From Chthoniobacterales bacterium (GTDB lineage Bacteria; Verrucomicrobiota; Verrucomicrobiia; Chthoniobacterales; Terrimicrobiaceae): a stretch of DNA of 32,612 bases. The position numbers and the translations under genes were made by a program. The stretch is taken from contig JACSRU010000071.1 of the NCBI GenBank assembly GCA_014879575.1, forward strand, positions 1 to 32,612. Reading direction: 5' to 3'. Of the stretch, positions 6,275-9,317 are shown in pieces (positions within the stretch are counted from its first letter, which is position 1; every line of letters begins with the position of its first letter). Below the pieces are notes generated by a model. The model was not told the DNA's origin and did not search any database. It worked only from the letters and a program-made list of their open reading frames with translations.

Positions 6275-7633
6275 GTGAAAGCACAAACCAACGGACTGAC
6301 AAAAACGACCAGTTTTTTCCTCGAGCCCGTTGGCCCATTTCGCCTCGACCTCACCGTCTGGACGCTGCGCCGCCGCTCCAGCAACGAGGTGGATCGCTGG
6401 GATGGCACCACCTATCGGCGGGTGTTGATTCTCGACGGCCTGCCGGTAGATGTCTCGGTCGCCCAATGGGCTCCGCCGGATTCCCGACGACTGCACGTGA
6501 CGCTCGCCGGACAACAGATTTCGGAAAAGGTAAAAACATTGGCAAAAAAATCTCTGGAGCGTCTGCTGGGGCTCCGGGTGGATTTGTCGGACTTCTACCG
6601 CCTTGCCGCACAGGACGACCGGCTGCGCCCGCTGGTGAAACGATTTCACGGAATGAAGCCGCCGCGCCTTCCCTCCCTTTTCGAGGCCCTGGCAAATGCC
6701 ATCGCCTGCCAACAACTTTCCTTGTCCCTCGGCATTTTGTTGCTGAGCCGACTGACAAAATCCTTTGGGGTTTCGGCGAATCCCCGGATGCCGGGATCGG
6801 CGCGCGCCTTTCCCCGGCCTGAAGACATTGCCAATCACCGCCCGTCGGATTTTCGGAAATTGGGTTTCAGCCACACCAAGGGCGAATCGCTCATCCGGCT
6901 GGCACAAGCCTGCCTGCACGAGATCCCCTGTGATGCGCTGGAAAAGGCCAACAACGCCAGCGTTATGGAATGCCTGCAGGCCTGGAAAGGCATCGGGCGC
7001 TGGAGCGCGGAATACGTGCTTCTGCGGGGCCTGGGGCGGCTGGACATCTATCCCGGTGACGACGTCGGGGCGCGCAATAATTTGCAACGCTGGTTGAAGC
7101 TCCGCAAGCCCCTCGACTACCCGGGAGTCCGACAGATCACCGCTTGCTGGCAGCCCTATGCCGGGCTAATTTATTTCCACCTGCTACTGGATCGGCTCGA
7201 TGCGGGGGGACACCTCGCGGCGCCCGTTCCAGAAAATCTCCCCCAAAAACCAACCCAAGCCACCAAACCCATGATCCAACTCAAGCGTGTCTATGAACCC
7301 TCCGCACGAAGTGACGGCAGGCGAATCCTCGTCGAACGTCTCTGGCCACGCGGATTAACAAAGGAAACCGCAAAGCTCGACGACTGGCTGCGCGACGTGG
7401 CACCCAGCACGGAATTAAGAAAATGGTTCAGCCATGATCCCGCCAAATGGACGGAGTTCCAGCGGCGCTACCGCAGCGAGCTGGACGCGCATCCGGAGGC
7501 TTGGCAACCGATTCTCGACGCCTCGGCAAACGGTGTCGTCACGTTGTTGTTCAGCTCCCACGACGCCGCGCACAACAATGTCGTCGCCCTCAAGTCTTAC
7601 CTGGAATCCCGGAAGTCCAGACGCTCCAAATAA
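6275..7633 (+). CDS. AlkA-type DNA-3-methyladenine glycosylase fused to DUF488
   Basis: This 452-residue protein joins two domains. Residues 10-310 match the AlkA family, which excises alkylated bases: an N-terminal TBP-like fold, then the helix-hairpin-helix core. The hairpin is around LQAWKGIGRWSAEYVLLRGL (234-253), and the catalytic aspartate pair is in YPGDDVGARNN (D262-D263). After a proline-rich linker (315-332), residues 333-446 form a complete DUF488 (YeaO-like) domain, recognised by IQLKRVYEP, RILVERLWPRGL and WFSHDPAKW; its biochemical role is not established. The GTG start at 6275 has AGGAA just upstream. The internal ATG at 7271 that would begin a separate DUF488 protein has no ribosome site, so a true fusion is favoured. 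The next gene starts 22 bp downstream. Confidence 0.85.
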   Translation: MKAQTNGLTKTTSFFLEPVGPFRLDLTVWTLRRRSSNEVDRWDGTTYRRVLILDGLPVDVSVAQWAPPDSRRLHVTLAGQQISEKVKTLAKKSLERLLGLRVDLSDFYRLAAQDDRLRPLVKRFHGMKPPRLPSLFEALANAIACQQLSLSLGILLLSRLTKSFGVSANPRMPGSARAFPRPEDIANHRPSDFRKLGFSHTKGESLIRLAQACLHEIPCDALEKANNASVMECLQAWKGIGRWSAEYVLLRGLGRLDIYPGDDVGARNNLQRWLKLRKPLDYPGVRQITACWQPYAGLIYFHLLLDRLDAGGHLAAPVPENLPQKPTQATKPMIQLKRVYEPSARSDGRRILVERLWPRGLTKETAKLDDWLRDVAPSTELRKWFSHDPAKWTEFQRRYRSELDAHPEAWQPILDASANGVVTLLFSSHDAAHNNVVALKSYLESRKSRRSK

Positions 7634-7655: not shown

Positions 7656-9317
7656 ATGATTCCCTTCGATGCCGCGCACAGGAGCCTGCACTATCCGGAT
7701 GATCGTCGGATTTGCCTCTGGGTGCGGCCCTCGCTGGTGTTCGGCGCCGGTGTGGCGGTGCTCCTTTTTCTTGCGCCTGCCTGGATCCAATGGGCTATGG
7801 CCGGGCTGCCAAACATCGTCCCGTCGCCGGGAGCAGCCTCTTCCTCAAGCCCCCACGGTTTTCCACTTTGGTTGAGGCTGTGCCATTTCCTGAACTTCGC
7901 CTTCATCATGCTGTTGATTCGCAGCGGGGTTTGCATCCTGATGGATCACCCGCGGCTCTACTTCAATGACCATTGCACACCGGGCAGCGAATGGCTTCGC
8001 CTGACCCCTCTGAGCGTTCCCACGGATCGCCTTTGGACGGCAAAAGATGACTCCCGCTACATCTCGCCGCTTTTGGCCACTCCGGGATACCGACATTCGA
8101 TCGGCATTGCCCGCGTCTGGCATTTCCTCGTTGTTCACGGCTTCATTCTGACCGGTATCGTGTTTTATGTCCTGCTGATGTCCACCGGCCAATGGCGGCG
8201 ACTGGTGCCGGAATCCTGGGATATCATCCCCCAGGCGTGGGCCTACCTCGTCCATTATGCGACGTTCCACCTGCCGCCCGAGCCCAACGGATTCTACGCC
8301 TACAACCCGCTGCAGCAACTGGCTTACTTTGGCGTCGTCTTCGGACTCGGTCCCCTGGCGATATTGACCGGGCTTGCCATGTCGCCGGCCGTGGTCAATC
8401 GCTTCCCCTGGTATGCCCGCCTTTTTGGAGGCCGACAATCTGCGCGCTCCATCCACTTTTTGAACATGCTGGGGTTCGTGGGTTTTATTGTCATTCATGT
8501 CGCCCTGGTGGTTCTGACCGGGTTCGTGCGCAACATGAACCACATCGTCATGGGCACCGACACGCTTCACCCGCAGGGAATGGTCCTGGGACTGCTTGCC
8601 ATTGGTGCGGTGGGACTTTCCTGGGTGGCGGCGCATTATCTGTCCTGGTATGCGCCCCGGCAGCTTCAGCACACGCTGAAACTGGTGACCTACCCCATGC
8701 AGTTGCTGACTCTGAATCGTCTCTCGCCGCAGAACGCCTATACCAAAGACGACATTTCTCCATATTTTTGGCCCAACGGAAAGGTGCCGACACGATCCGA
8801 CTGGGAGCATCTGGTGGAAACCGGATTCCGGGATTATCGGCTGAAAATCGGGGGTTTGGTGGAAAATCCGGTCGAACTTTCGTTGACGGACCTCGCCGCC
8901 TTCGGCGAGCAGGACCAAATCACCATGCACCATTGCATCCAAGGCTGGAGCGGAATCGCCCAATGGGGAGGCATCCCGATGGCAACCATCGTCAACCTCG
9001 TGCGCCCCTTTCCCAAGGCGCGCACCGTGGTTTTTTATTCCTTTGGCGACGCCCTCTATGGCGGCGCCTATTACGACACGCAATCCCTCGAGAACGTGCT
9101 CAAGCCCCAATGCCTGCTTGCCACGCGGATGAACGGAAAGCCCCTCCCGGAAGTCTATGGCGCACCCATCCGACTGCGCGTCGAGAATCAACTGGGCTAC
9201 AAAATGGTCAAGTGGATTGAACGCATCGAGTTTGTCGAGTCGGAAAAATCCGTGGGCCTGGGCGAGGGCGGCAAAAACGAAGACGACGAGTATTTCGATC
9301 TCCTGCCCAATATCTGA
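7656..9317 (+). CDS. Cytochrome b membrane domain fused to sulfite-oxidase-type molybdopterin domain
   Basis: The 553-residue protein has six likely membrane helices (about 26-48, 72-96, 154-176, 222-245, 267-291, 307-330). Histidines H77, H156, H161, H267, H281 and H327 in or near them are candidates for heme b ligands. A linker leads to a C-terminal molybdopterin oxidoreductase domain (about 380-530). Its MHHCIQGWSGIAQWGG segment holds C427, the expected molybdenum ligand, in a context like MsrP. This looks like an MsrQ-like and MsrP-like pair in one chain, taking electrons from the quinone pool. No twin-arginine signal exists. Positive charges cluster in the N-terminus, loops 2-3 and 4-5 and the C-terminal side, so the catalytic domain is predicted to be cytoplasmic. 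The substrate is unknown. Confidence 0.82.
   Translation: MIPFDAAHRSLHYPDDRRICLWVRPSLVFGAGVAVLLFLAPAWIQWAMAGLPNIVPSPGAASSSSPHGFPLWLRLCHFLNFAFIMLLIRSGVCILMDHPRLYFNDHCTPGSEWLRLTPLSVPTDRLWTAKDDSRYISPLLATPGYRHSIGIARVWHFLVVHGFILTGIVFYVLLMSTGQWRRLVPESWDIIPQAWAYLVHYATFHLPPEPNGFYAYNPLQQLAYFGVVFGLGPLAILTGLAMSPAVVNRFPWYARLFGGRQSARSIHFLNMLGFVGFIVIHVALVVLTGFVRNMNHIVMGTDTLHPQGMVLGLLAIGAVGLSWVAAHYLSWYAPRQLQHTLKLVTYPMQLLTLNRLSPQNAYTKDDISPYFWPNGKVPTRSDWEHLVETGFRDYRLKIGGLVENPVELSLTDLAAFGEQDQITMHHCIQGWSGIAQWGGIPMATIVNLVRPFPKARTVVFYSFGDALYGGAYYDTQSLENVLKPQCLLATRMNGKPLPEVYGAPIRLRVENQLGYKMVKWIERIEFVESEKSVGLGEGGKNEDDEYFDLLPNI

Follow-up and report, generated by a model that had tools for sequence, protein, structure and literature searches.

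A one-chain cytochrome b-Moco oxidoreductase with a predicted cytoplasmic active site, apparently turned over with respect to a two-gene sister system

Introduction

On which side of the membrane does a molybdenum-cofactor (Moco) enzyme act when it shares a single chain with a cytochrome b? The question is raised by an open frame at 7656..9317 (+ strand) of a contig from a Chthoniobacterales bacterium (Verrucomicrobiota; GenBank assembly GCA_014879575.1, contig JACSRU010000071.1), whose 32,612 nucleotides were analysed as a whole and are called the window hereafter. The frame encodes a fused cytochrome b-Moco oxidoreductase of 553 amino acids and has 78 full-length homologues. In the MsrPQ system (YedYZ), a sulfite-oxidase-fold Moco reductase receives quinol electrons via a membrane heme protein; the Moco subunit, MsrP, is a protein of its own that reaches the periplasm by Tat export, and MsrQ comes from another cytochrome family. 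The cytochromes FdnI (formate dehydrogenase-N) and HyaC (hydrogenase-1) likewise serve separate periplasmic catalytic subunits, through their loops I-II and III-IV. A preliminary description of the window, made from its letters, had instead read a six-helix protein lacking a Tat signal, whose charges would put the Moco domain inside the cell.

We conclude, with a probability of about 0.72, that the gene encodes a one-chain cytochrome b-Moco reductase that is inverted relative to a two-gene sister system and has, on its predicted topology, a cytoplasmic active site. The protein is a variant combining known kinds of domain (PF01292 and PF00174), remarkable for this apparent inversion.

Results

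One chain with a cytochrome core and a Moco domain

The fusion itself was confirmed, both domains lying on one chain and above their curated cut-offs in profile searches. The first, the di-heme cytochrome b core, matches PF01292 at residues 69-292 (7860..8531, + strand; E 1.2e-15, 58.2 bits vs a cut-off of 30.1), and the Moco domain matches PF00174 at residues 392-531 (8829..9248, + strand; E 8.1e-32, 110.6 bits vs a cut-off of 24). A chance frame or fusion is excluded by the 78 homologues, which are 59-78% identical and align over essentially the whole length. Our scan of genome contigs gave 80 loci in Acidobacteriota, Verrucomicrobiota, Gemmatimonadota, Eremiobacterota, Planctomycetes and Chloroflexi; the alignment comprises the window protein and 78 near-complete homologues (79 rows), three N-terminally short proteins (L042, L074, L079) having been left out. 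Met stands at the position aligned with the start codon (7656) in 69/79 rows, and no clear ribosome-binding site was seen upstream of it. The window protein is the sole PF00174 match found in its own genome (97.7% complete), which also encodes TatC.

Six long membrane helices, as first proposed, are present in an AlphaFold2 model built from 49 sequences (mean pLDDT 80.0, pTM 0.78), at residues 25-49, 71-95, 149-177, 218-241, 260-287 and 307-332, and six peaks appear in the averaged hydrophobicity profile of the 79-row family. The N-terminal tail (residues 1-24; 7656..7727, + strand, as are all features of the gene) holds four K/R, among them an invariant RR at 17-18, and is predicted to be cytoplasmic. 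Helix 1 (7728..7802) is missing in archaeal and Corynebacterium relatives. Helices 2 to 5 correspond to core helices I to IV: core helix I (7866..7940) carries the heme ligand His77, core helix II (8100..8186) carries His156, core helix III follows at 8307..8378, and core helix IV (8433..8516) carries His267 and His281. The loops I-II (residues 96-148; 7941..8099; highly conserved, six K/R) and III-IV (residues 242-259; 8379..8432) are predicted to be cytoplasmic, and loop II-III (residues 178-217; 8187..8306; two K/R) to be periplasmic. Helix 6 (8574..8651) connects to the C-terminal domain, itself predicted to be cytoplasmic, in which Cys427 (8934..8936) presumably binds the molybdenum and is followed by Trp at +4 and Ser at +5.

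The distribution of the histidines is that of FdnI/HyaC-type heme ligands, i.e., one each on core helices I and II and two on IV, and all four are kept in at least 95% of the 79 rows. Cys427 is invariant among the aligned family rows. Loop I-II is among the best-conserved stretches of the 79-row alignment (DHPRLYF...CTP...EW...WTAKDD..Y...P..PGY.H), and the part of the full model that sulfite-oxidase structures match begins at residue ~126, inside this loop. Loop I-II is accordingly placed by the model in predicted contact with the Moco domain, a packing that fits the separation of the two by an even number of helices. Cys107 (7974-7976), which lies in loop I-II, the loop predicted to face the Moco domain, is conserved in 79/79 rows.

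A patchily distributed family

The fused gene is patchy within its own lineage: a relative of the membrane part was found at E 1e-15 in 4/288 genomes of the phylum, the source genome included. Remoter fused relatives, 35-49% identical among the matches listed, are plasmid-borne in Rhodococcus, Variovorax, Bradyrhizobium, Mesorhizobium, Methylocystis, Paraburkholderia, Curtobacterium, Corynebacterium and haloarchaea, in records that name the protein merely 'molybdopterin-dependent oxidoreductase'. For comparison we picked, for diversity, 13 fused and 10 split (two-gene) plasmid-borne loci from the matches listed (40 and 50 rows); the same four heme histidines are present in 13/13 and 10/10 of them. 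Two of the records required care, since the annotated 833-residue Methylocystis protein contains the fused enzyme as its C-terminal part only, and helix 1 of the P. caledonica protein is missing from the annotation but encoded by an upstream open frame. In several genomes the fused gene is present two or three times, on separate contigs (L012/L072/L074, L006/L062/L079, L057/L073 and L003/L052). We found no description of the fused family or of its proposed inversion in the open-licence literature searched.

Folds of the two modules

Folded alone, the membrane core matched the FdnI chain 1kqf_C with Z 12.2 (177/216 residues, rmsd 3.5) and the HyaC structures 6g94_A and 4gd3_A with Z 11.1 and 10.6, while bc1/b6f rows ranked lower (bc1 Z <=9.3). 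FdnI was found with the core alone and was absent from the structural matches of the whole-chain model. Foldseek with the core returned no PDB match at E <=0.001 (E 0.05 for the FdnI/HyaC fold), and HMMER searches starting from the full-length protein or from its profile had no solved cytochrome b561 relative among the matches listed. The window protein and FdnI/HyaC have PF01292 and the four-helix di-heme core fold in common; they differ in that the partners of FdnI and HyaC are separate and periplasmic, whereas the window protein is fused and predicted to be inverted. Given this fold and the Moco-facing loop I-II, homology alone would place the Moco domain outside. Such an orientation was the one first suspected, and it was dropped after comparison with the loops of the split systems: where the partner-facing loops of FdnI/HyaC are periplasmic, the charge pattern of the window family is reversed, which predicts the opposite side.

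The full model matched the sulfite-oxidase fold (2blf_A, Z 21.3) and eukaryotic nitrate reductase (2bii_A, Z 20.0). The best NCBIfam match was MsrP (NF003767), at 72.1 bits far under the equivalog cut-off of 207, and the window protein is without the Tat signal that MsrP carries on its Moco subunit. It differs from MsrPQ also in architecture, being one chain where MsrPQ is two proteins of which the Moco one is exported. After the molybdenum-binding Cys, the family reads C-I-Q-G-W-S, MsrP C-V-E-A-W-S and plant sulfite oxidase C-A-G-N-R-R; Cys-x3-Trp-Ser is thus common to MsrP and the window family. Membership of the sulfite oxidases or plant-type nitrate reductases was rejected on account of Ser432, which stands at Cys+5 in place of Arg. 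We take this Arg to be part of the anion pocket in sulfite oxidase and eukaryotic nitrate reductase.

No conserved Tat signal

The proposed lack of a Tat signal held throughout the family, with a loose Tat pattern in just 4/79 N-termini and 3/79 loops preceding helix 6. The twin Arg 17-18 (7704-7709) is found in 79/79 homologues, in a consensus (DRRFRIW) that is not Tat-like. Tat export through this pair was considered and rejected as a means of carrying the Moco domain across: the residue at +2 is Arg in 72/79, and an inside N-terminus followed by six helices leaves the C-terminus inside. Nearer to the Moco domain, RR occurs within residues 283-312 in 15/79 rows, mostly as RRNMNH, and no conserved twin-Arg motif was found directly before helix 6 in the 79 rows. 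By inspection, RR precedes helix 6 in 0/13 plasmid-borne fused proteins.

A comparable order of modules is described for Sco3746 of Streptomyces, which has five helices, heme-bearing ones among them, and ends in a Moco domain that is experimentally C-out; its helices export fused reporters, in a Tat-dependent manner, through a twin-arginine motif that precedes the last helix (PMC5449189, from the portions of that paper used here). Compared by description and not by alignment, and as far as those portions go, the Sco3746 type resembles the window family in having heme-bearing helices, one further helix and a Moco domain on one chain, and differs from it by the conserved twin-Arg before the last helix, which the window family is without. 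Seven proteins (L091, L095, L098, L099, L100, L102 and L103) from the window's own bacterial order are polytopic, with a different hydrophobic N-terminal part and a C-terminal Moco domain. They show an RRxFL-like motif ahead of the last helix, and by this signature are likely to be further dual Sec-Tat proteins.

Reversed charges in the two-gene sister system

The same cytochrome occurs together with a separate Moco protein in Agrobacterium, Rhizobium, Microvirga and others, where the two genes are annotated 'cytochrome b/b6 domain-containing protein' and 'molybdopterin-binding protein'. The split and fused modules are homologous over most of their length, with up to ~38% identity, and have the heme histidines and the loop motif GGRQSAR in common. 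In contrast to the fused form, the split system consists of two chains, its Moco subunit bears a Tat lipoprotein-type signal, and its charges put the Moco-facing loops outside. The signal, RR followed by a hydrophobic stretch (TRRRFLIG and similar) with a lipobox-type Cys near its end, was seen in 9/9 annotated Moco subunits (Halomonas L119, whose start is not annotated, was left out of this count), and on this basis the split Moco protein is presumably exported.

We compared loop charges between the 10 split cytochromes, the 13 plasmid-borne fused proteins and 21 of the 79 family rows. Loop II-III has 8.3 K/R in the split forms (7-10, n=10) vs 1.85 (1-3, n=13) and 2.0 (1-3, n=21) in the fused ones, and the core N-tail has 3.1 vs 0 (n=13) and 0.24 (n=21). 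The opposite holds for loop I-II, with 3.5 vs 7.0 (n=13) and 7.24 (n=21), and for loop III-IV, with 2.0 vs 3.7 (n=13) and 4.05 (n=21), although the conserved arginines of the latter may be functional and imitate a topology signal. The charges of the split cytochromes agree with the positive-inside rule if these proteins lie as FdnI does, an orientation favoured by 9/10 of them; over the four inner segments, P. fungorum is narrow (10 vs 11) but among the nine, and Halomonas is tied (9 vs 9).

These comparisons change the grounds for an inside C-terminus more than the conclusion. The preliminary description had argued from the charges of the window protein, which are weak evidence: with AlphaFold helices, K/R make up 14/115 residues vs 3/80 on the opposite side (Fisher P=0.033), and with 15-residue caps P=0.072. 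The comparative evidence is strong, all 79 family rows having more K/R on the side of the N-terminus than on the other side (mean 12.4 vs 3.3).

Helix 1 is missing in 5/13 plasmid-borne fused proteins, from Corynebacterium and four haloarchaea. In these proteins core helix I comes at the very beginning, 0 K/R precede it, and no helix was found encoded in frame upstream of their genes. An odd number of helices, which had been named in advance as speaking against an inside C-terminus, is thus found in these relatives, yet the charges keep them in an N-out/C-in arrangement: five helices with an outside start bring the Moco domain inside again. On sequence grounds, a cytoplasmic C-terminus and Moco domain is supported for the family, and the enzyme would then act on cytoplasmic substrates.

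Trees of the two modules

Split and fused proteins are parted by a supported branch in the trees of both the Moco domain (98/88) and the core (100/100). In the Moco tree, the split proteins are the closest relatives of the fused ones, of which the forms lacking helix 1 diverge first; the core tree leaves this order open, and the Corynebacterium branch is long and unsure in its placement. The simplest history would be a single inversion, occurring together with fusion and the loss of Tat export, with helix 1 gained later in one branch. The trees leave the direction, fusion or fission, open.

Gene neighbourhood

In the window, the gene upstream (6275..7633, + strand) joins an AlkA-type DNA glycosylase (AlkA_N, HhH-GPD) and a DUF488 domain in a single frame and stops 22 bases short of the start codon of the fused gene; no nitrogen gene was found beside the latter. 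Neighbours were counted over 81 loci, 72 of which have >600 bases downstream. A gene for an HPP transmembrane protein, which we take to belong to a nitrite-transport family, immediately follows the fused gene on its strand in 28/72 loci (for L045 and L070 this placement comes from coordinates). NnrS-like genes occur in 18 of the 81 loci, CRP-type regulators in 11, ScdA/RIC-type hemerythrins in 9 and NirK-like multicopper proteins in 5. Genome by genome, HPP is encoded in 14/21 genomes carrying the fused gene and lies just behind it in 13/14, a count obtained by matching HPP coordinates against the contig ranges of the fused loci; it is present at one place per genome, except for two adjoining fragments in one of the 14. 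Among the remoter relatives, nirK adjoins the fused gene in Halobaculum, an annotated HPP gene is on the same stretch in Halomarina, and a flavohemoprotein gene is nearby in Rhodococcus (345 bits to 'NO-inducible flavohemoprotein', under the cut-off of 432). The HPP, NnrS, ScdA/RIC and NirK-like neighbours argue for nitrogen-oxide or nitrosative-stress chemistry.

NarG exceeds its cut-off in only 1/22 genomes with the fused gene. For NirK the figure is 4/22, and NirK was rejected as an obligatory partner. A nearby chaperone, which the preliminary description had suggested looking for, did not emerge: the survey of family loci gave no recurrent chaperone gene near the homologues.

The neighbourhoods hold other recurrent genes. 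Two groups of DUF488 genes are near the fused gene in 10 and 9 of the 81 loci, DUF488 genes also accompany it on the Variovorax, Bradyrhizobium, M. loti and Methylocystis plasmids, and a UDG-superfamily gene is near it in 4 loci. Among the split systems, that of Microvirga stands before msrA and msrB, and the rhizobial ones L121 and L125-L127 stand behind an ECF sigma factor gene, with a DUF1109 protein as well in L121 and L126. The sections of PMC3511200 drawn on here describe a Caulobacter sigma factor, sigma-F, that acts with a DUF1109 regulator and controls an Oxidored_molyb protein.

Discussion

In the reading that we prefer, helices 2-5 would form an FdnI/HyaC-type di-heme b cytochrome, and helix 6 would tether a Moco domain of the sulfite-oxidase family to it. 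The whole unit would be inverted in the membrane, with the N-terminus, the heme-proximal loops and the Moco domain all cytoplasmic. Judging from the cytochrome family, membrane quinol would be oxidised near the periplasmic face, and electrons would cross the two b hemes to the cytoplasmic Moco, reducing the substrate with cytoplasmic protons. By analogy with NarGHI, the reaction would be electrogenic.

Which substrate is reduced is a question on which we lean less firmly than on topology. Our leading candidates, at somewhat under even odds, are nitrogen oxides, nitrate included, or products of nitrosative damage. Against them speak the lack of Arg at Cys+5, the small number of genomes with NirK above its cut-off (4/22) and the want of a nitrogen gene next to the fused gene of the window. 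The fuller scheme, in which the cytochrome was flipped by a redistribution of K/R at the time of fusion and the protein became a quinol-driven, energy-conserving cytoplasmic nitrogen-oxide reductase working with HPP as a nitrite channel, is a tentative one that we think unlikely to hold in every part.

A cytoplasmic S-oxide comes second to the nitrogen-oxide and nitrosative reading and is a rather doubtful substrate. The enzyme would then keep the proposed topology and reduce methionine sulfoxide or another S-oxide, as a cytoplasmic equivalent of MsrPQ; we think this unlikely, but it is the best placed of the competing explanations. MsrP being the best NCBIfam match (72 bits vs 207), the MsrP-like residues at +4 (Trp) and +5 (Ser), and the msrA and msrB genes adjoining the Microvirga split sister all speak for it, but the neighbours of the fused gene are HPP, NnrS, ScdA/RIC and NirK-like genes and not Msr genes. 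It is clearly less probable that the protein, again in the proposed topology, belongs to the sulfite-oxidase family as a respiratory nitrate reductase, the nitrite formed being exported by HPP: eukaryotic nitrate reductase has the same fold, HPP adjoins and NarG is scarce in these genomes, but the pocket signature is MsrP-like and not that of the plant enzyme. Least probable of all, and in our view very improbable, is a Moco domain outside the membrane, with the FdnI orientation kept and the folded C-terminal domain exported late, as in Sco3746 (C-out and Tat-dependent in the cited portions of PMC5449189), or by an unknown route, since the core fold, the exported two-gene sisters and the Tat-embedded polytopic Moco proteins of the same bacterial order are set against the want of a conserved twin-Arg before helix 6, a would-be cytoplasmic loop II-III stripped of positive charge, and helix-1-less forms that would require an uncharged cytoplasmic N-tail.

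If the inverted, cytoplasmic arrangement is right, the fused and split forms would represent a clean natural inversion of a whole redox membrane protein between sister families, in which the heme ligands and interface motifs were kept through the inversion. The family would add a widespread, uncharacterised, putative cytoplasmic Moco reductase to the repertoire of soil Acidobacteria, Verrucomicrobia, Proteobacteria, Actinobacteria and haloarchaea, one whose gene adjoins genes for the handling of nitrite and NO.
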